Shown: one piece after another, positions 33,095 to 53,027 of the stretch
How positions within the stretch are numbered: the stretch's first letter is position 1
How the letters are laid out: each line of letters opens with the position of its first letter
Origin: Uloborus plumipes
Lineage: Eukaryota > Arthropoda > Arachnida > Araneae > Uloboridae
DNA: 64,000 nt
Reading direction: 5' to 3'
Assembly: GCA_038373865.1 (NCBI GenBank)
Contig: JAXGGA010002264.1
Location: forward strand, 62,001-126,000
Position numbers and translations under genes: made by a program
Notes under the pieces: model-generated
Databases searched by the model: none
Told to the model about the DNA's origin: nothing
The model's input: the letters and a program-made list of their open reading frames with translations, nothing else

Positions 33095-35235
33095 TAGGGT
33101 GGGTCGTTTTAAACTTTTTCTGAAATCGAAATCGCGGGTGATGGGAAAAGTTGTGTATTGGCATCGAATGTTTGTGTAAAATTTTTTTTTGAAAATCAAA
33201 ATATATTTAGACCCCCCGCTTGGCCCTTGAAGTTTCGCAAAAAATGTAAAAAATGGCATTTTTAAACAATTTTTTTAAAAAAAATCATTTGCAATTTTTT
33301 AAATCGCCTGTGGTGGGTAAAGGTGTTCATTGGCATCAAATGTTCGTGTAAAAATTTTTTTGGAAATCAAAATATATTTCGATCTCCCGCAAAACCCTTG
33401 ACATTTCTGCAAAAACGTAAAAAAATGGCATATTTTTTCTTTTCTTTTTTTTTTTTTAATTTTTATGCATAATCCTTTAAATCATTTTTTGTGTAAAAAG
33501 TTCGAGCATTGACATCAAACCTTAGTTTAATTTTTATTTTCGGTATTAAAAAGGTATTTTGACTCTCCCAGGCATTTGAAGTTTCTCCAAATGTGTGAAA
33601 ATTCATTTTCAAAAACATGTTTTAAAAAATCACTTCCTATTGCTTTTTATTTCTTGATGCGTAAATAGTTGAAAAGCAAAGGCATATTTCTGTGGAAAAA
33701 AAAAATTATAGCTATCATATTATGTTTAGTGGTCTTGCCAAACCTTTAAATTTGCTATTTTTTTTGTTTAGCGTTGAAAAAAGAGGTAGACGATTTATAC
33801 AGCTTTGTACGAATAACTGTTTCTGCGCGGAATATACGTTTCTTCTATTCTGTAATATTATATAACTAATAAACATCACCCACCCCCCATATTAACAATG
33901 TTCCTGGTATTTAGATAAGCAAATATGCACCGTATGTAAATCGCAATGAAGAGCTCAGAGCAGAATTGTTTTATTGTGGCTTGTGTGTTTATCCCAGAGA
34001 ACTTGCTAATTGCCATGATTAAAAACACGCAATCTTGTGTGAGGAAATTAGGATACAGAAGAATCCTGAAGGCCAGAGCTCTTACTAATGAAACTGTTCG
34101 TGATTTTGTCATTCCACCTCTCAATTTTCAAGAAAACGACGATACGGAATTGATCGATTCCTCCGCTTATCAAACATATTTCCAATGCGGAACTTGAAAA
34201 AATGGCTGAAACGGGTAAAGTAATTCACCATGTCACACACAAGCAGTAGAAAGAACAGTTAGGTTAGTGACAGCAGCATCATCATCTGTTTGTGGAGCAG
34301 CTAGTCGTGATGGCTTTATTCGTACTACGTTAGCATCCAGAAAATTAATGCCAAACTTTGAAAACAAAGCAAAGTATAAGGTATAAAATTTGTTACAAAT
34401 AAATAAATAAATACATAACCACCCAAATATTGGAAGTTTTGAGGATAGGGGGGAGGGCTATGGTGGTATTCAAAAGCAGCCACCTCCTTGAGGTGAATTC
34501 TAAGCTATTTTTCTCTAATTTCGGCAAAATGAACTAAGAGCTGCTATAACATTGCGACGCAGATAGAGCGTCAACAATTCTCTGGTGCTTTAGTCTGGTA
34601 TACTTATGTTTTAATCTGAAATAATTCTGTAACTTTTTTTTTGAAAAAAAAAAAGTAAAAATGGATGTTTTAATCAGTGTTTTAAAGATTTTTTTTTTTT
34701 TTACTTTTCGCTTTACCTTTCGATGTTTTAACATCAAAATAATAAAAAATCTCTAAATGTTTCAAATTTCAGCGATCTATAGGAGGCTTAAATATTGTAC
34801 AATATTTTAATATTTCTGTTTATGAACAAAAAATCTTACAAGGCAAGTATTTTAACTACTGGGAATAAAAAAAAAAAAAAAATACCTAAGGAGTTTTAGA
34901 AATAAAAAATAATTTTTTACATATTTGGCAAAATTTTAAAGGGACGGCTGTGGGTTCGAAAGATATTTTAGCCCCCATTTAGAAATCTTTGGTGTCGATG
35001 CATAACTTTTCCCAGCACAGCGATTAGAAAATTACACATACAAATGTCAACAAATTGTTTAAAAACGCAATTTTTTTTTCATTTTTGGCGAAACTTCAAG
35101 GGCCCAGCGGGGGGGGGGGTCTAAATATATTTTGATTTCCAAAAATTTTTTTACATAGACATTCGATGCCAATACACAACTTTTCCCACTACAGGCGATT
35201 TCGATTTCCAAAAAAAGTTAAATCGACCCACCCTA
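33095..35235. mobile_element. TIR element with TAGGGTGGGTCG ends
   Basis: The left end TAGGGTGGGTCGTTTTAAAC mirrors the right end GTTAAATCGACCCACCCTA. The inverted arms extend for hundreds of bases: the TGGCATCGAATG run near 33160 mirrors CATTCGATGCCA near 35165, and CCCTTGAAGTTTCGC mirrors GCGAAACTTCAAGGG. The arms contain several diverged repeats of a ~150-bp unit. No target duplication is visible. The interior holds a broken coding fragment on the plus strand. It lies in the 21-kb intron of gene 2. Confidence 0.75.
33946..34384 (+). pseudogene. Transposase-like fragment, family without a name known to me
   Basis: The frame 33946-34197 contains VRKLGYRRILKARALTNETV, then RDFVIPPLNFQENDDTELID. 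After an out-of-frame gap, 34234 onward reads HTQAVERTVRLVTAASSSVC, then GAASRDGFIRTTLASRKLMP. From memory, I associate these blocks with a family of uncharacterised, repeated proteins seen in aphid, hydra and arachnid genomes. I cannot name a superfamily and no search was done. The stop at 34195-34197 and frame changes make it a relic. It sits within the inverted arms, consistent with the C-terminal part of the element's own gene. Confidence 0.55.
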
Positions 35236-37092: not shown

Positions 37093-37491
37093 CTAGGGAG
37101 GTTCTCCGCCTCCGTGGGAGATGGAAATCGTGTGAGTTGGGATGTCACGCCACTTGTCCATCTTCTTAACCTTGCCAATCTCAGAAAGGTGTCTCAATAT
37201 CGTTGTATGGTCAACTTTCATCCTGATAGCAAGTTCCCTCGTGGATACGGCTGGATCCGCTTCCACTAGATCCTTCAGGTCATCATTCTTCACAGACGTT
37301 TTGGGTCTTCCGCGCGGCTCATTTTGCAGTAAAAAATCGCCAGTCCGAAATTTTTCGAACCAACGCTGCACTTTCCGATCGTTAACCGTATTCTCCCCAA
37401 ACGCTTGGTTTATGTTGCGTGCAGCTTTTGCAGCACTATTACCAAGTTTGTACTCATATAAGAAAATGACGCGAATGTCGGCAGAATTCAT
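37093..37491 (-). pseudogene. Mariner transposase, N-terminal DNA-binding part only
   Basis: Starting at ATG 37491, the frame gives MNSADIRVIFLYEYKLGNSA, then a helix-turn-helix block with VQRWFEKFRTGDF, then a second with STRELAIRMKVDHTTILRHL, and GKVKKMDKW, the linker just before the catalytic domain. This is the bipartite paired-like DNA-binding domain of mariner transposases. After DKW the sequence diverges (DIPTHTISISHGGGEPP) and the DD34D catalytic domain is missing. It covers about 120 of ~345 residues. It cannot transpose itself. Confidence 0.9.
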
Positions 37492-37681
37492 ATCGGCAAT
37501 AAACTCAAAAGAAATAACAAAAGGGAAGACCTTCGAGAAAAGCTATTTTGCTGAAATGCGTCTCTGGCAATGGGCAATACGACTATGAATGAGGTTATGC
37601 TAAAGACAAAAGTATAACGAAAACAGGGAGACAAACGTCCGCATGTAAAGGGAATCCGACATTTCATACGCACCAACCTAA
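37093..37681 (-). mobile_element. Truncated mariner element
   Basis: On the minus strand the element starts after TA with TTAGGTTGGTGCGTATGAAA, a mariner terminus, followed by a short leader and then the transposase start at 37491. The other terminus and the catalytic half are absent; sequence homology stops near 37093. Confidence 0.85.
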
Positions 37682-41853: not shown

Positions 41854-43078
41854 ACTTGTTAGTGTAACTCGGAAATAAATTATGCAATTGTTCTAAAATT
41901 TTAATAATTTACTATTCTGTACATTGTCTTCCTATCCACCAATTTTCGTCTAAATCGGACTATTTCTTCTTACTGCGTCGATTTTTTGTTTTAATTTCTA
42001 TCAAATATGGCACTTTTAGTCATTCATGTCCCCCTTTTTTAAAAAATCTCCTTGTGCCACACTAGAGTGGTCACAAAAATTAATTTTCGAATTTCTTATG
42101 CGGGCACCCCCCTAAAATGAGCCAATAGGCTAGAAAATGAGATTTGAAAAGTTTTAGCTTAATCGGATAATATTAACACGTGCCGCAAAGAGGGTAAAGT
42201 TAAGAAAAACAGCCATTTTTAGCCAAAAATTGTAGTTTTTACTCTGTGAAACCAAAACTACGTATCCTAGAAGCTTTATTTTGGTCTCATTTTGTAGAAA
42301 ATTTTATTTTCTTTAAGTCTAATTTCATTTAAAGTCTCGAAAAAAATGATTGAATATTTTTTAGAATTTTCGCAAGTCAGGCTGCAACGCATTTCCTCGA
42401 AATTACAAGTAACATGGGGAAATATTTTTTTCAACTAATCTTTTGAGGCATCCCCCTAAAATGTGCCAATAGACTAGAAAATGAGATTTGAAAAGTTTTA
42501 GCTTAATCGGATAATATTAACACGTGCCTCAAAGTGGGTAAAGTTACGAAAAACAGCGAGTTTTAGCCAAAAATCGTAGTTTTTCCTCTGCAAAACCAAA
42601 ACTATTCATCTTAGAAATTTTATTTTGGTCTCATTTTGTAGGAAATTTCATTCTCGTTTAGTGCTATCCCATTCATTTTTGCTACCATGTTCAAAGTATT
42701 TATTTGGCATTTTTCAGGTTAAATCGTAGAGTATATCAAAAATAAGAAATTTTCATGCAAAAACCTAAAAGCATTACAATATTCAATTACATTTATTTGC
42801 TTATTGTTGGATTTACTTTGTCAACTAAAAAAGGAGTATTTTTGCGGTACTTTAGAAATAAATAAAACAAATTTGTGTTAAAATAGAGGAATTAAGGGGT
42901 TAAGATGGAAAGCAAATAGTTAAAATGACAATAAAAGCGTTAATGCACCTTTATACTTAAACTGTTAAATTATATAACATCATTTTACTACTCTTTACAT
43001 ACAAATTAGGTTGCGGATGGCTTGGATGGGATACCTTTTGATAAATGAGGAAACTGTGCCTGCATTTAGCATACAGCA

Positions 43079-43375
43079 TTAACTTGTAATAAAAGCTATT
43101 GTTGCTCTTTTGTCTTTCGTCAAAGAGGAACTGAAGCCTGGAATTAATTTTACACCTCTTTCAGCTGTGTCATGGAAAATCATTAAACTATTTACTGTCT
43201 TTTTATCTTTAGTATGAAATTGGTTTTTACACGATTTATAGGGGTATACATTGTAATCGTCTCTAGGCTGCAGCTTTTTAATTTCACAACAAGCAAGTTT
43301 CAATTTTCGCTTAAATTGCTTATTTCTAATATTATCATCTTCTGTACCTGCTTTAAATTGCTTTTTATCTAACAC
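43079..43375 (-). pseudogene. C-terminal transposase-like fragment of the 8.5-kb element
   Basis: The product includes LKLACCEIKKLQPRDDYNVY, then KTVNSLMIFHDTAERGVKLI, then SSLTKDKRATIAF. The blocks LQPRDDY and DTAERGVKLI..LTKD are, from memory, the C-terminal hallmarks of an uncharacterised repeated protein family; a similar NTERGMALIE block is in the neighbouring element at 52.3 kb. No catalytic domain is present in this frame. The frame at 43693-44016 just upstream is not recognisable and may be arm sequence, because its inverse lies at 47290-47602. Confidence 0.5.
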
Positions 43376-45717
43376 AGATCATTCAGCTGGAAATTTTTAA
43401 AAAATATTTTCTTGAGGACCAGCAGATGTATTTCCATTTTGCAACTAAAAACTTCTTTAAAAACAACTTCTAAGATGCGGTGGAAACATGCTGAATGCGG
43501 AAAATATTTCTGTAACAACGCAGGTTTCCTGAAAGCTACCACTACTTTCAGCAGTGGTATCAAAATACATTCCATAATTTTTTTCAACTGAGCCCCAATG
43601 CTCAACTAAACTACTGAATATATAGCACTTACTTCTACACGCACGTGCTGTTTTTAAGGATGGGAACACCTATCATCTGCTCTTGAACACCACTAGTTAT
43701 CAAAATTGCTAGCCTGTAAATTGTCTTTGTTAAATAGAACTAGCTGAGCTTTCTTATCCCAATACACAACAGTTCCTTCTAACCAGGAAAGTACTCGACT
43801 TAAGTAATAATGAAAAAAGTTAAAAATGGTACCATTCGAAAGAGCATACTGAGACATGTCTTTGACCCAAAGATCAAGTGCCCTCGTCCCCTCGTTTTCG
43901 AGATAAAGGGTCTTAAAGTCGGCCGTAAATGAGCCAAATTTGAAGACTTGGCAAGAAATTGAAGCTAGCTCCAGATTCTCCCTTCCGCTGCTTGCTTGGC
44001 ATCGCATCGTTTCCATGTTTGGTCATTTGCAAAGAAAGTAAGATGTTTTACTTTAACCCTTTACTTGTATGAGCTAAAATAAAGAATGCTGGTCAAGACT
44101 ATGATGTGGAAAGCAGAGAGCTTTATCCAGAGGAGCAAAAACTTTACAAAGAAGTTAAAGTTTCATCTTTTTACGATTGATAACAATACATTTTAGAATT
44201 TCAGTTATTTGAAGTTTTTTTACTGAACTAAGTTGTATGTATTAATTATTACACGTTAAAATATATTGCACGTGTTTCTAAATGAATAATTCGGGATAAT
44301 TAAATAAGTATGAAAAGCAGCTAATATGAGCTCATGTACAAAAAATGAAAGAAATTATTTTTGGGGTAGAAATTAAATTGTCATGGATTATGATATCAGT
44401 TCTTATTGAAAAAAAAATCGATACAAGAAGTTTCACTATCTGCCAACTCTTAGCAAAAACATTTATTTTTTTTTTAAATTGAAATCGAGAAAAAATAAAC
44501 AATTTTTAAAAGAGAACGAATTAGTAAATATCAATAGCTGCAAAATTATATCCACGTCGGAAAGTACATCAATGGTAGAGGGAAATAATTATTTCCATTC
44601 CTAAAATATACTAATAGAGTCGGCATTCATTGTAAAAACCCCTGCCGTTCAAACAAATTTGTCACTATAGCGAAAAGTCTCTGTAACGTAAATGTAAAAC
44701 ATATTGCATGTTAATTTCGTACTGCTTAAAAACACTAGAATAACTTTTACTAGTTCTGCTACATGTTCAACGGGTAGGAAAAGGCTAACAAAATTGTAAA
44801 TCAATACAAGTTTTAGCTTAAAGTTAATACAAGTTTTAGCTCTGTAAAAGTAGAAAATAGGTGAAAAAAAATCATGAAAGAAGGCTTGATGCACTGAAAA
44901 AAAAAAAACGCTCAAGCGAAGAAAAAGCACAACTTAATAAAAATAATTAAATACACAGAGAAAAATTTAAAATAGGAAAGTTGGGTTTTGAGCTGCGGAA
45001 ACTGTGTACCTGTCAGTCTGTCTATTGGTCAGTTTTTCTGCCCCCCCCCCCCAAACCCCACAATAACTTTTGAGTGCATAGTCCGATTCGATTTTTTTTT
45101 TTAATCGAAAGATCTCAGTGATGACAATACACTCCCATACTCGACTTTTTGATTTGAATAATATTTCATTCAATTTCGAATTTCCAATTTTTCCCCCTGT
45201 CCTCACTTAGAACTTTTGAAGGAGCAAGTTCGATTCGAGCGAACATATTTTTTCGAAATATCTCAGAGAAAACACCTCATTCCTGTTTCATTTTTTTATT
45301 TGAACTCATTTTCATTAAATTTTGAGCATTTTTTTTTTTTTTTTTGAAAGACCATTCTTACATACCCAGTGATGCAATTGACAAAAATGTTTAGGGGAAC
45401 TTACTTTGAGTTATAGGGGACCCACCAAAAGAAAAGTGGTTTGAAAAAATTTATATTTGCAAATTTTACAATTAAAAACCCTAAATATACCCCCCCCCAT
45501 ACTACAGAATTGTACGAACACTTAAAAAAAATAATTAAAAAAAACAGGAGGTTCAGTTGTCACCTCCTGTTGACAAGGGGGGCCCCTTAACAAGGGGGAC
45601 TCCCCTTAAACAAGGGACCTGCATTAATCGCAAATAGTACGATAAAATTTAATTTTGATGTGTTGTTTAAAATTGTTTTTCCTCTTTAAAAAGCTCTCTG
45701 CTTTCCATGGCTTGATA

Positions 45718-47276
45718 CACTAGGTGGCCAAAAGTATCCGGACACTTTCAAAAATTCACATCTTTACATATAGCTCGAGAAATAAGTGATTAATTGTTCT
45801 TTAACTTTAGTCATACAAAATGTAGGATTCACCGAACATTTCCAAGTTGAAATTAAATTACCCTTGCATTTGGGGGACGACAAGAAGGTGGGTCGGAAGA
45901 AAAACTGCTTTTTGACCATACTCTTCGAAAATAGCTCGGAATATGCTATAAATTTCAGTAATTAATTAGCATACTATGTATAATTACTGCACAAATTTTT
46001 ATGGACGTACCACTCTTACTTCCGAAGATATGAAAAGTTTTTTAAAAAACGGCAATTTTATTTGAAGGGCTTTTGCTCATAACACGCAGAGTTTTTGATC
46101 AAACCTTATCACAACTTTAGGAAAGATGACAAAATACAAGAGAAAGAACATACTAAAACGGTAAAAAAAAATATTAAAAATCCGATGAGATATGAACGTT
46201 AAAAGGAAATAATTTCTCACGGCGCATGCGCGAACGACAGAAATTTATAACTACAAAAATATTGTAGCCTGGTTTATACTGCATCTTATTAAAAAAATTT
46301 CAGTTGAATATCGTAAAAATTGGAAAAGATGTCAGCGATCTAGTGAGCTGTAATTCATTCATTCGCAGACAATACATAAATGGCGAGGGGTTGTCCACAA
46401 ATAGTGTGGTGAAAATCGAGCATTTTTTTCAATGTTAAATCGTATACAGTTTGAAAATTTATATTCGGCATAGAAGTCACATTTCGCCTATTCGGCCAAA
46501 AAGACCTTATACGTAGGTGGCCAAAAGTATCCGAATACCTCCTGAAACGTTGGTTTTGAACGATGACGCAATCACCTTTAATTTAAAAATAGCTCTTTGT
46601 GGACAGTCCCTCACTACTTATGTATTGTCTGCGAATGAATGAAATACAGCTCACTAGATCGCTGATATCTTTTTCAATTTTCATAATATTCAACTGGAAC
46701 TTTTTTATAAGATGCAGTATACATCAGAGTACAATATTTTTGTAGTTATAAATTTCTGTCGTTCGCGCATGCGCCGTGAAAAATTATTTTCTTTTAACGT
46801 TCATATCTCATCGGATTTTTAATATTTTTATTTACCGATTTAGTATGTTCTTTCCCTTGTATTTTGTCATCTTTCCTGAAGTTTTGATGAGGTTTGAAAA
46901 ACTCTGCGTGTTATGAGCAAAAACATTTCAAATAAAATTGCCGTTTTTTAAAAAACGTTTCATATCTTCGGAAGTAAGAGTGGTACGTCCATAAAAATTT
47001 GTATAGTAATTATACCTAGTATGCTAATTAGTTACTGAAATTTATAGCTTATTCCGAGCTATTTTCGAAGAGTTATGGTCAAAAAGCGGTTTTTCTTCCG
47101 ACCCCCCTTCTTGTCGTCCCCCAAATGCAAGGGTAATTTAATTTCAACTTAGAAATGTTCGGTGAAGCCTATATTTTGTATGACTAAAGTTAAAGAACAC
47201 TTGATCACTTATTTCTCGAGCTATATGTAAAGATGTGAATTTTTGAAAGTGTCCGGAGACTTTTGGCCACCTAGTG
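45718..47276. mobile_element. Tc1-type fold-back element
   Basis: The left end TA-CACTAGGTGGCCAAAAGTAT mirrors TTTTGGCCACCTAGTG-TA at the right. GTGGCCAAAAGT is a frequent Tc1-like terminus. The arms are inverted over several hundred bases: ATATAGCTCGAGAAATAAGT mirrors ACTTATTTCTCGAGCTATAT, and GGCGCATGCGCGAACGACAG mirrors CTGTCGTTCGCGCATGCGCC. An internal terminus-like GTAGGTGGCCAAAAGTATCC lies near 46514. No transposase. 1559 bp. Confidence 0.85.
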
Positions 47277-47659
47277 TAGTAGCTTTCTGCTTTAACTCGC
47301 ACAGGTAAAGTAAAAGATTATTGTAAAGCCGTCTTTCAAAAGCTTTGCAGATGACCAAAAATGGGAGTCAAGTTTTCCGTTGGATGCAAATAGTGTAATC
47401 GCACCGCAGCTTCCAGTTTCATTATAACTCGCTAAAATTGGCGATTTTTCAAAAAAAATTAGCTGACTTTAGGACCTTATATTTCGATAACGGGGGCGCG
47501 AGGGCAAAAACGCGTGCGTCCAGAAACATGTTTTACAATGCTCTTTCGATTGGTACTCATTTAAAAAAAATTCATTATTCCATGATCGCGTACTTTCCTG
47601 GTAAGTCTAAATTCCTAAATCGATTTTTGATAAGTTTAAATCTTTGTTGACGAAATTGC

Positions 47660-47916
47660 TCTCTACAAAAGGGTATGTATGACGTTTCTACTGAAAATTA
47701 AATCTGACATTAATGATTTAATGTCTCTTCTGTAGCTGCTACTATCCGTTCTACGAATCCCGATGAGAAACATCAAAGTTGTTATCAAGGGAAAATCCTT
47801 AACTTTTTGGTTTTGAATGGCATTTTTGGATCTCTCAGCATTCTTTGCAGCTTTCTCCGCTCATCATACAGTTTTTCTAGGTTTGTAACGTAGGTTTTAG
47901 ATTGTTTGGCTGGCAT
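47660..47916 (-). pseudogene. Possible N-terminal coding fragment of the 8.5-kb element
   Basis: On the minus strand an ATG at 47916 opens MPAKQSKTYVTNLEKLYDER then RKLQRMLRDPK. A +1 shift continues NAIQNQKVKDFPLITTLMFL. It is basic and rich in predicted helix, and it lies on the same strand as and upstream of the C-terminal fragment at 43079. Linking the two is an inference. I do not recognise the domain. Confidence 0.3.
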
Positions 47917-49123
47917 CTTAGCTTTTTCACAAAAAATGAGAACTCCCTTTAGTTACTTGAAGCTTTTCTGAATATCAGTTTAATTTGACGCAAGTTTTAA
48001 AGATAGAAGGTAAGATAAGAAGGTAACTTGGAGCCTGTGATTTAATGAGACATGCGGCTATTAAAAATTGTCTTTCTGTCTTAAATTCAAGCTTGTTGAT
48101 CTTTGGAAACCGAAAGTGGAGCCATTCTCCATTAAATCTCAAGGATTGTGTCCCAAACTAGTTGCTTGAAGACTTGCAAAGCGAACAACTATGAATACTA
48201 TATTTATAAAGTGTTGTGGGGTGTCTTAATGATTTCTCGGCCCTCCCACAATAGAGATGGCGATTGAACCTTTCTATAATGGGGAATCATAGTTTTCTCG
48301 CTTCCCCAGGGGGTCGAAAGCCCTAACAAGGCAGATTTTTAAGCTAATATTCAGCTCTGACGGCTAAGGAGGAAAGCAGCGTTTTGTATTTGAAGGGGTT
48401 AAGAGATGAAAGGGTTAAGTGACAAAACAGAAATTGCGAGTAATTAAAGTTCAAAGTTTTATTACTGTAGTTATTGCAGATTTTTTGTTTTCTTGTTTTG
48501 TCATTAGTGTGCGAATGATATTGGTCTATTGATATCTACTGTTTGATTTACCAAGTTTTATTTTCTCACCTGTATCTATTGCTTACCATTGTAGAGAGCG
48601 TTCATTTTTTAAAATGTAACTTAGCCCCTTCATCCTCCAAGCCCTTCATTTATGGCTCGTACTGCTCAATTCATAAGCTTTACTCGCAGTTATTTATTTT
48701 ATCTATGAGTTTCAAAGACATAAATTTATTATATATTCGTAATAATATTGTTGTTTTTTTTCTGAAAAGTCAACGTTTTCCGTAGATTTCATCAAATTTA
48801 CTAAAATAACTTATTAATTTACATTTTAATGATTTATTTTTTCTAAGCAATTTCGAGGATTTAGCGCTGCAGCCTGACTTGAAAAATTCTGAAAAATATT
48901 CAATTTTTTCGAGACTTTAAATGAAATTAGACTTAAAGAAAATAAAATTTCCTACAAAATGAGATAAAAATACAGCTTCTAAGATGAATAATTTTGGTTT
49001 TACAGAGGAAAAACTACGATTTTTGTCTAAAAATCGCAGTTTTTCGTAATTTTACCCACTTTGATGCACGTGTTAATATTATCCGATTAAGCTAAAACTT
49101 TTCAAATCTCATTTTCTAGTCTA

Positions 49124-50122
49124 CTAGCTGACCCGGCCACGCGCTGCTGTGGCTAAGGTATGGGTTAAACTATAATGTTTCAATAGAAACGAAAAACTTT
49201 ATTACCGTTATAGAGATCAACTTTATATAAATATGAATTTGAGGTCAAAATATGAAAACAATCGAACAAAAATTTCCTACGTTTGCTAGAAACAAAAAAT
49301 GTAGCATTTTAGTACTTAGAAATATTATATTCAAGCTTGTAACAATTGAGTTAATTAAAAATTTGCTAATTGCTATTGTAACATTTTATTTTTTAATAAT
49401 ATAGGTAGGGTAGATAATTAACCAATATTATTTGTTATTTTTTGAATTATAAGCATTTTTAATTTCAGTTTAACTCAACACTAATCGGTGCACAATATTC
49501 TTTGTTAATCTGTCTCTTGTAAACAAAAATAGATTGGACAATTTTCCCACACGGGAGCAAGCGACCTATAGTTGCCCATGGGAAAACATGGATTTTCTAA
49601 ATCTAAACCGCAAATTGACATTGTTTGTCCTTGGGACTTATTAACGGACATGGCGAAAGCTAAACGAATGGGAAACTGTAGCCTTTTGAAGGGTATTGAA
49701 GATTCTGACGGTGTCATTGGGATACGTGGCAACAGAACTACTTCATCTTTAAACTTGCCAGTCAAAATGATTGCCTCAATAATGTTCCCGGTGATTTTTT
49801 TGATAACTAAACGCGTACCATTGCATAATCTCGGTGCATTTAAATTACGTAGAACTATGGGTGAACCAATTTTTAACCGCAGATTATGTGGTGGCATTCC
49901 AGGTATGTTTAAAGAATTTTAGCCGAGAATACAGAAAAGCTGGTAGCTAAATAGATAATTTGCAATAAAAAAATATTGCGGTCCTAAATTGAGATAAAAA
50001 CTATCCTATCATTTAAGTTGGACCAAACTGAAACTGCGTGCAAAATTTGGTTACAATCGGTTCAGTAATTGAGGAGTCCATTGGCCACAAACCCAGGGAC
50101 ACGTAATTTTTATATATTAAGA
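49124..50122 (-). mobile_element. Truncated Helitron inserted in the right arm of the 8.5-kb element
   Basis: On the minus strand the element begins TCTTAATATATAAAAATTAC and ends with the hairpin GCCACAGCAGCGCGTGGC, then CGGGTCAGCTAG, followed by T. Both termini are canonical Helitron features and insertion is between A and T. The exact empty site, GTGCCAATAGACTAGAAAAT, survives at 42464-42483 in the opposite arm. 999 bp. It contains a helicase C-terminal fragment. Confidence 0.92.
49505..49897 (-). pseudogene. Helitron helicase (Pif1-like) C-terminal fragment
   Basis: The frame gives [20 protein letters not shown], then [20 protein letters not shown], then [21 protein letters not shown], then [12 protein letters not shown]. 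This is the last part of the superfamily 1 helicase domain of Helitron RepHel proteins, including helicase motifs V/VI ([11 protein letters not shown]). The usual VACSR motif that follows is disrupted. Everything N-terminal, including the Rep endonuclease and Walker motifs, is missing. Confidence 0.9.
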
Positions 50123-50626
50123 TTGGCACATTTTAGAGGGGTGCCTCAAAAGATTAGTTGAAAAAGAAATTCTCCATGTTACTTGCAATTTCGAGGATTT
50201 GCGTTGCAACCTGACTTCTGAAAAATATTTAATTATTTTTTTTGAAACTTTAAATAAGATTAGACATTAGAAAATCAAATTTCCTACAAAATGAGACCAA
50301 AATAAAGCTTCTAGGATTCGTAGTTTCGGTTTTACAGAGTAAAAACTACAATTTTTGGCTAAAAATGGCTGTTTTTCTTAACTTTACCCTCTTTGCGGCA
50401 CGTGTTAATATTATCCGATTAAGCCAAAACTTTGCAAATCTCATTTTGTAGCCCATCGGCACATTTTAGGGGGGGGGGGGGCCGCAAAAGATTAGTTGAA
50501 AAAAAAAATTTCCCCATGTTACTTGTGACCACCTTAGTGCCACACACATCAGCTGTATCAACTAGGCAATAAAGAGCATTTATTTTGGATTGTAAATCAA
50601 TAGCTTCTTTTTTATGAATGTGCCAT

Positions 50627-52987
50627 TAGGGTGATTCAAAAAAAAATTTTTTTTTGAATTTCTCTGGTCTTACCCCGCAGTTTTTTTACACTATTCATGA
50701 ATGTAATGCATGTAAAGTTTTAGCTCAATTGAATAATATTTAGAGGTCGCTCAACGCGATCGAATTCTGTTGAAAATTAGCTATTTCGAGAGTTGGAGTA
50801 TATAGCTTCATTACCCGAAATAATATTATTCTTCATATAAAATGGAGTAACTTAAAACGTTAGTTTACTCTACTAAGTAATTAGTCAATAAAATAACTCG
50901 AAGTGAGTTGTAACGATTACCCCCCCCCCCCCGCTCCAAAGCTGCATTATCTCTTACCTGAGTTTGGGTAGAAAATGCAGCTGCGAGCTCGGGCTGTGGT
51001 TTCTGCTTTCTTTTCGGTTGTTTAAGGTATATGAGTTTATTTGGCTAAAACACCTAGCATCCACTCTAGACAGGGCACAGTATAAGTGACAAAAAGCCAC
51101 TTTGATAGTAGCTGCTACAGTACAAAGTATGGGTCAAAATAGGGAGGATTTGACAACGTCCATAAAACGGTAAATGCAAACTATTCGCTCTGAATTAGCC
51201 GTTATACAAAAGTCGTTTAAATCTAGGACTTCCTTTGATAGTTCACTGGAACGAAACACTTATTCAAACTATATTGGGGAAATGAAGGATGATCGGCGGG
51301 TTTCATACCAGTATTAGTATCAGGACCACAAGCATTGATGATTTACTTCCGGGTTCTAGTAAGTTAGTCAGGCATTGGAATTGCTACGGAAAATGAAGCT
51401 ATACGATAACCAGTTAGATAAATGGGAACTTACTGAGCTCGTACGTGGTATGTGTTTCAATACGACATGCATTGCCTGTACTAAAGTTGGAGCATGTTTG
51501 AACTTGGGGAAAAAAAAACTAGGGATTCAACTTTTATATTGTGCTTTCCGCCATTATATTTTAGACATTGTGTTTTCTGTGGTATTACAACCGAAATCTA
51601 TTCTACTCTTGGTCTCTCGGTATTTTAACCGATAAACCAAGAAATAAGTAGAATGGGGGTATTTGATTGCATGCAATGTCAGATGCGATGTTCATGCAAT
51701 TGTGTGGAACCATCCACTGCCATTGGATCTACAATACTGCTTTTTAAGCGGTTTTAGCAATCATAGTCCAGAATAAAACATTCTAATTTAAACCTGGAGT
51801 GAGGAACGATGAGGTTGAGGAGTTGGCAGCACATTCAGAGCAACGTGCAACTAGTAATGGAAGTTGCGCAAAGTTAACTTCTGATGACCCATGTAAAAGT
51901 GTGCAAGGAATATACTAGAGCTTAGTGCGATTTTCTTGAGCAGAGCACCTTCTCTTGGTGTATGTTTTCGTGTCCCAGGATTGGTTCCTCGTGTTATATC
52001 TGTGTTAAAGATTCTTTATGGCTTCAAGTTATGGATATTTCCCAACCAGTTCAAACTTGCAGCTGGACAAACAAAAGTAACATATGAATGTGATTTCTTT
52101 CACGTTCTTATCGTTAATGGGGAAGAATATCTAAGAGCTGGGTTCCCAGCAACCCTTTTTGTGCAAGCACTAAGAAATGATTTGGAATATTTTTAGCGTC
52201 CTTATTCATGTAAAGAAGAAACTCAAAATATATCAGCTGTTTGATCCTGAGCATTCGAATCTTTAAGATAGCTACCAACAAGGCTTTATACTACCAAAGA
52301 AACTGAGGATTGTAAACCACAATACGGAGCGTGGCATGGCCCTTATTGAAGCATTTGTTAAGACTATCATTAACGACGAAAAACAGACAGTGTCTTCAAG
52401 TGGTACAGGAACACAGAAAAGGTTTCAAAGTTGCAAAAAAGTAACCTTAAAAAGTATTGCAAGAATTAATGAGCGAATTACTATATATTTAATGTATTTA
52501 AATTTGTTTTTTATATTTTTTCTGTATTTGATTAGTTGTCATACTTTTCTGCATTTCATTGGTTTTTCAGATATATAGTTCATTTTGTGATTGCACGCTT
52601 CTTTTCTTCGGAGATATAAAAAGCAATAAGTAACTTTATTATTATTATTATTTACGTTCGCATTTGTGCCACTATCACAAAATTTAAAGTACTCCTAAAT
52701 GTAAATATAGTTTACTAAAATTTTGGGCGAATAATTCAGTGTATATAAAGGGCCTAAATAAGACGGTAAGACGAATAAAAATACAAAGGCTTTTTTCTAT
52801 AGATATCATTTACGATCACGTTTTTGTCAATATCACAATTTCAAGGCGTTTGAGCGACCTCTAAATATTAATATATTTTGCCAAAGTTTTGCACAAATAA
52901 TCAGTGTATATAGTGGCACAAAATAAGAGGGTAAGACGCACAAAAATACAAAGTTTATTTTTTTCTATACATTTCTGAATCACCCTA
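50627..52987 (+). mobile_element. 2.4-kb TIR element with TAGGGTGATTCA ends and 9-bp target duplication
   Basis: ATGTGCCAT occurs at 50618-50626 and 52988-52996. The ends TAGGGTGATTCA and TGAATCACCCTA are perfect inverted 12-mers, and the following bases resemble those of the 8.5-kb element (A-rich run, then TTGAATTTCT against TCGAATTTCT). The right arm has two tandem ~160-bp units with GGTAAGACG. It carries a plus-strand transposase-like relic. It lies 82 bp from the 8.5-kb element. Confidence 0.85.
51375..52443 (+). pseudogene. Transposase-like relic of the 2.4-kb element
   Basis: Frames in order: 51375-51635 gives MKLYDNQLDKWELTELVRGM, then CFNTTCIAC...GACLNL...KLGIQLLYCAFRHYIL. Next, 51936-52196 gives CFRVPGLVPRVISVLKILYG and IFPNQFKLAAG. 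Last, 52321-52443 has NTERGMALIEAFVKTIINDE. From memory I associate these with a family of uncharacterised proteins having FDTTxSNTG, CRHH and TAERGVxLI blocks. The FNTT...RHY stretch may be the first catalytic region of an RNase H-like transposase, which is an inference. Multiple stops lie between frames. Confidence 0.55.
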
Positions 52988-53027
52988 ATGTGCCATTATT
53001 GCCACCGGTGAGTGGTATTAAATAAAT

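Follow-up and report, generated by a model that had tools for sequence, protein, structure and literature searches.

The window analyzed here is a 64,000-nucleotide stretch of the Uloborus plumipes genome (positions 62,001 to 126,000, forward strand, of contig JAXGGA010002264.1, assembly GCA_038373865.1). It contains two adjacent transposons, elements 1 and 2, which are decayed, dead members of one DNA transposon group. We put the probability at about 80% that the group moves by cut and paste and that its transposase is distantly related to the hAT transposases, of which Hermes is one, with elements 1 and 2 as decayed members. The predicted fold of the transposase and the order of its conserved blocks led to this interpretation, together with the target-site consensus and a comparison of profiles.

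An earlier reading of the letters of the window (the original prediction) had described two adjacent transposons with TARRGTG ends and exact 9-base-pair (bp) target-site duplications, and both were present where it had placed them. Element 1 (42063–50536, 8.47 kb, coding strand minus) carries transposase pieces between inverted ends, TAGAGTGGTCACAA on the left (42063–42076, plus strand) and TTGTGACCACCTTA on the right (50523–50536, minus strand), and is flanked by the 9-bp duplication GTGCCACAC at 42054–42062 and 50537–50545. Element 2 (50627–52987, 2.36 kb, plus strand) has the inverted ends TAGGGTGATTCA (50627–50638, plus strand) and TGAATCACCCTA (52976–52987, minus strand), with the 9-bp duplication ATGTGCCAT at 50618–50626 and 52988–52996. 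Both duplications were exact. Because the chance of exact 9-bp identity at one given end pair is ~4^-9, and because further copies of element 2 had identical ends although they lay at different sites and between different duplications, we conclude that the duplications in the window are real.

A profile of 97 relatives of the transposase was run over the reading frames of the whole window and matched relics in each element. In element 2, the relics on the plus strand were the second catalytic Asp (Asn here, in FNTT) with an altered CRHH block at 51363–51632 (independent E value, i-E, 4.6e-12), a piece of the helical insertion domain at 51897–52193 (profile positions 481–570, i-E 1.4e-13), and a TERGMALI block with the conserved Glu at 52267–52575 (i-E 3e-7). 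The relics of element 1 lay on the minus strand and followed the order of the gene from ~47952 to 43082, with weak pieces between them. They comprised an N-terminal piece at 47788–47952 (profile 59–96, i-E 1.4e-4), a region around the second catalytic Asp block at 43460–43739 in two frames, starting at 43739 (profile 317–344) and 43669 (profile 352–388), and a single frame at 43082–43378 matching both profile 437–481 (i-E 0.045) and profile 683–720 (i-E 8.9e-7, TAERGVKLI block). Because the last two matches lie in one frame, most of the insertion domain of element 1 is missing. An arrangement of element 1 with two opposed transposase copies was dropped once this profile had placed the relics in gene order on one strand. 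The results bore out the proposals that the two elements form one group and that both carry an AERGV-like block. The FNTT...CRHH block had been suggested to be a catalytic region and probably is one, as it falls at the second catalytic Asp and CxxH, both of which are altered in element 2.

The ends of elements 1 and 2 differ beyond TARRGTG, as would be expected if they were unrelated elements with ends alike by chance. This explanation is scarcely credible: it is refuted by the presence in both elements of relics of one transposase, and a 44-bp subterminal stretch (repeat family D3) is also shared.

Element 1 contains two subterminal repeats in direct orientation (42103–42673; 227 bp, 88% similar to each other); inverted partners lie near 48900–49129 and 50269–50474. 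Between the right subterminal repeats lies a fragment of a Pif1 helicase 2B domain (49505–49918, minus strand; PF21530, E 8.8e-13), possibly a Helitron remnant. Nested inside the element 1 gene, at about 45716–47278, is a long element of palindromic structure; its ends are GGTGGCCAAAAGTATCC, near TA, and we take it to resemble a non-autonomous element of the Tc1/mariner type.

A search of the genome (1.42 Gb, 25,906 contigs) with element 2 gave at least 57 matches; 40 of 1785 candidates were scored, and the copy counts are therefore lower bounds. At least 40 places, including the window's own, hold at least 1.69 kb of element 2, the others being 93–97% identical to it. In the 20 copies that were fetched, the left end was TAGGGTGATTCA, except in L024 (TAGGGCGATTCA); the right end, found in 18 of the 20, finished in CACCCTA, except in L021 (CATCCTA). 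The number of right-end subterminal repeats (~170 bp) varied among copies L010–L028, several carrying one or two extra. A majority sequence built from 21 copies (20 genomic copies plus that in the window), to which the copies were 97.0–99.7% identical, contained no open transposase frame. All 21 copies had Asn at the second catalytic Asp codon, and all had an altered CxxH motif, with Cys changed to Phe, the last His to Tyr, and the following Glu to Asp; the Glu codon of the AERG block was kept in every copy. Ten stop codons in one frame were each common to 19–21 of the 21. The shared stops and altered catalytic codons indicate that the gene was already dead before the family spread. We conclude that element 2 is non-autonomous, was amplified after the death of its gene, and was therefore moved by the enzyme of another element. 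A related element on contig C17453 (3350 bp, frames of 467 and 235 amino acids, 8-bp duplication atgtacac) has the right end TGAATCACCCTA and 71.7–77.9% DNA identity to element 2 over four main colinear blocks. Because its left end, TATGGTGATTAA, differs from that of element 2, it is only a candidate helper.

Whereas a read-through of element 2 in a single frame found no relative, the joined frames of the majority sequence matched one database protein at E ≤ 1, P0002 (E 2.6e-42). P0002 in turn had at least 119 matches in the genome (119 of 5338 candidates scored; E 1.2e-160 to 5.7e-53). An uninterrupted frame of 565–567 amino acids was present in 10 of 20 excised loci, and full-length single-frame transposases were found in L052 (786 amino acids), L053 (774), and L054 (795). 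Members of the F567 family have a 199-amino-acid frame followed by one of 567; the element is 3.5 kb long with ends TAGGGTGGTCCTTA...TAAGGACCACCCTA, and two further copies were 98.7–99.6% identical to the first. One of these two (C1038, L037 with L051), otherwise near-identical, carried an additional ~1.5 kb close to its left end. The elements of the 786- and 774-amino-acid families are ~3.34 kb and ~4.24 kb long (lengths taken from BLAST limits, with a few flanking bases included); their left ends are TAGGGTGGCCCTTA and TAGGGTGGTTCA, respectively, and the right end CCACCCTA is common to both. Thus, 3.3–4.2-kb elements with uninterrupted transposase frames exist in the same genome, and these frames together with the near-identical copies suggest that the group was apparently active recently.

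With an alignment of eight relatives as the query, 805 proteins were found at E ≤ 0.1 among 7990 scored. None of the 120 listed proteins had a Pfam domain, and those with organism names were uncharacterized or hypothetical; the named hosts were Uroleucon formosanum, Aphis glycines, Schizaphis graminum, Daktulosphaira vitifoliae, Solenopsis invicta, and Lasioglossum baleicum. Alignment A2 contained 97 of the 120, the 23 left out being mostly shorter, and in all 97 the residues Asp, Asp, C/DxxH, and Glu were conserved in that order. In the numbering of protein P0005, D300, D365, and E700 form the putative catalytic triad and C394–H397 the putative C/DxxH motif.

Eighteen group sequences (P0002, seven frames from six loci, and ten of the listed proteins) were scanned against Pfam and five against NCBIfam, with no match above the cut-offs (curated ones for Pfam). 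Sequence searches of the PDB gave no match with P0002, eight weak matches with the L053 protein (best E 0.19, mostly proteasome subunits), and three with the A2 profile (best E 0.019, MPP1). Pattern matches to P0002 in viral contigs (14) and in bacterial and archaeal genomes (38) were in no case confirmed. No family model for the group came up in any of the protein-family libraries tried. No paper describing it was found among those listed, as judged by titles and the first part of abstracts, with Repbase and Dfam outside the scope of that search. Repbase presumably contains unclassified aphid families named by their 8- or 9-bp duplications, and members of the group may already have names there.

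An RNase H-like core, which the original prediction had proposed to look for by structure prediction, was confidently predicted, and it is interrupted in the model by a large all-helical domain, as in Hermes. In structure comparisons Hermes scored 5.8 Z units above the best other match listed, and its match spans the insertion domain. In the 50 Foldseek matches listed, the RAG and Transib chains had E ≥ 0.5 and no P-element chain appeared, and P element, Kolobok, Dada, and Merlin were absent among the 50 matches listed with Z scores; this ranking and these absences exclude nothing.

For the profile comparison, the hAT reference was an alignment of four transposases from the same genome, each of which matched PF05699. 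The second Asp and CxxH blocks of the group and the four hATs were in register (P 0.0054). Trimming columns to the first sequence gave a score of 36.5 for the hAT profile, compared with at most 27.4 in 60 column shuffles and 15.6 for the reversed profile. The single hATs scored 27.6, 16.4, 20.4, and 29.6, and the best alignment of each reached the second Asp/CxxH region. Taken as sequence evidence, the comparison modestly supports a relation to hAT. PF05699 itself had at least 150 matches in the genome (150 of 3772 candidates scored), and by eye one contig was shared with the listed P0002 matches, the two lying far apart.

Target-site duplications were tabulated for 46 sites, leaving out C14845 (no ends found), C13077 (no left end), and six F567 copies with at most one end. 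Exact duplications were of 8 bp at 19 sites and of 9 bp at 10, with 13 versus 6 in the element-2 family and 2 versus 3 in F567. Among the remaining sites, four had no duplication, three had one mismatch in 8 bp, one had 7 bp, seven had AT repeats, and two had no located right end. The AT repeats lay on both sides of the insertion at these 7 of the 46 and would fit an nT...An target. The predicted 9-bp duplications therefore held for both elements in the window, but for the group the length is 8 or 9 bp; copies lacking the 9-bp duplication had been expected to speak against the group, yet it stands with the 8-bp copies included. In the 29 exact sites T was second in 28 and A second-last in 28 (P ~6.5e-13 each, background 0.33). 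Separately, the 8-bp sites had T at position 2 in 18 of 19 and A at position 7 in 18 of 19, and all ten 9-bp sites had both T second and A second-last. Of the 29, 23 had G in third place and 21 had C third from the end, giving the consensus aTG-N2-CAt or aTG-N3-CAt. The 8-bp target preference of Hermes is nTnnnnAn (PMC10368747, PMC2803484).

Duplications of 8 or 9 bp are also usual in Mutator-like elements (MULEs) of Aedes aegypti, most of which have long terminal inverted repeats and short subterminal tandem repeats (PMC5225508). Descent of the group from a MULE lineage is nevertheless very improbable. Three MULEs jointly scored 18.75 against the group, a value exceeded by at least five of 30 shuffles, the highest of which reached 24.7, and PF10551 was unmatched in the 18 scanned sequences. 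At least 129 MULE matches in the genome shared no contig with the listed P0002 matches (by eye, both lists being partial). Because true hATs scored only 20.5 against MULEs, the profile method is weak at such a distance, and this sequence comparison tells little about a MULE relation.

Several results weigh against the hAT interpretation. The Foldseek TM-scores were modest (0.35 and 0.49), and the hhalign probability was low, 6.7% in the first comparison and 12.0% with trimmed columns. Two of the single-hAT scores (16.4 and 20.4) fell within the shuffle range of the joint profile, the first catalytic Asp was out of exact register, and the global alignment mode gave no sensible alignment with hAT. 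None of the 18 scanned sequences matched the Pfam hAT models PF05699 or PF14372 even at E ≤ 10, which is a matter of sequence sensitivity and not a structural feature. The N-terminal BED finger (PF02892), common but not universal in hAT, was likewise unmatched in the Pfam scans. Among the target sites, 4 of 46 (L010, L014, C13071, and F567_C23758) had no duplication and 1 of 46 had only 7 bp, and a third of the exact duplications were of 9 bp, unlike those of Hermes. In 7 of the 19 exact 8-bp sites the next base was T, which would allow a 9-bp reading of these sites should the first T lie outside the element; the other 12 of 19 were plain 8-bp duplications. An 8-bp duplication with one chance neighboring base cannot give 9-bp identity unless an extra terminal base is assumed.

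A separate superfamily within the wider C/DxxH group (Dada, hAT, Kolobok, MuDR, and P), with no specific sister relation to hAT, would account for the fold search by Hermes being best only as the solved relative at hand. We regard this as unlikely, since the profile score with hAT exceeds the shuffles, the group and Hermes share a target consensus, and the Hermes match both leads the next listed structure and covers the insertion domain. Somewhat more plausible, although still tentative, is a separate superfamily standing as the sister group of hAT. It would have a helical DNA-binding domain of its own at the N terminus, and its transpososome would accept two target spacings, one enzyme reading a palindromic ATG/CAT pair separated by 2 or 3 bp and giving 8- or 9-bp duplications. 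The original prediction that the group resembles no known superfamily was not supported, as fold, block order, profile, and target consensus all point to hAT; its view of the group as poorly described held to the extent that Pfam, NCBIfam, and the PDB gave no usable match.

For a distant hAT relative, transposition could proceed as follows. Two transposase subunits would read a palindromic target in which 2 or 3 bp separate the ATG half-site from the CAT half-site; this spacing would set the cutting distance and hence an 8- or 9-bp duplication. By analogy with Hermes, the flanking DNA is probably left with hairpin ends upon excision.

The element at 33095–35235, with inverted ends TAGGGTGGGTCG and CGACCCACCCTA, had also been proposed as a group member. 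It shares the end motif but has no 8–9-bp duplication and no match to the group's transposase, and its 85-amino-acid fragment (33940–34197) had no Pfam match above the cut-off; the proposal was not upheld. An open frame of 149 amino acids at 37093–37542 (minus strand) presumably resembles the N terminus of a mariner transposase.

Recognition of the group would turn many insect proteins now called uncharacterized or hypothetical into recognizable transposases, affecting gene counts and repeat masking. The mixture of 8- and 9-bp duplications with a fixed palindromic half-site makes it a natural case for studying what fixes the distance between the cuts of a transpososome, and the near-identical copies with uninterrupted frames make it directly testable.

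Compared with known systems, the group resembles Hermes and other hAT elements in its predicted RNase H-like core, into which a large helical domain is inserted, in the block order Asp, Asp, CxxH, insertion, Glu, and in a target with T second and A second-last. The second base of the ends of the group is A and the fifth is G, which is also the rule for hAT ends. It differs from hAT in mixing 8- and 9-bp duplications within one family, in a helical N-terminal part lacking a BED match, in the lack of a Pfam hAT match, and in having NDxAERGV where the hAT proteins L106 and L108 have SERLFS, if these blocks correspond. With the MULE Muta1 it shares 8- or 9-bp duplications (PMC5225508); unlike MULEs, it lacks a PF10551 match, and its profile relation to them did not exceed the shuffles. 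The IS256 family, represented by ISCth4, is bacterial and gave a weaker match than Hermes.
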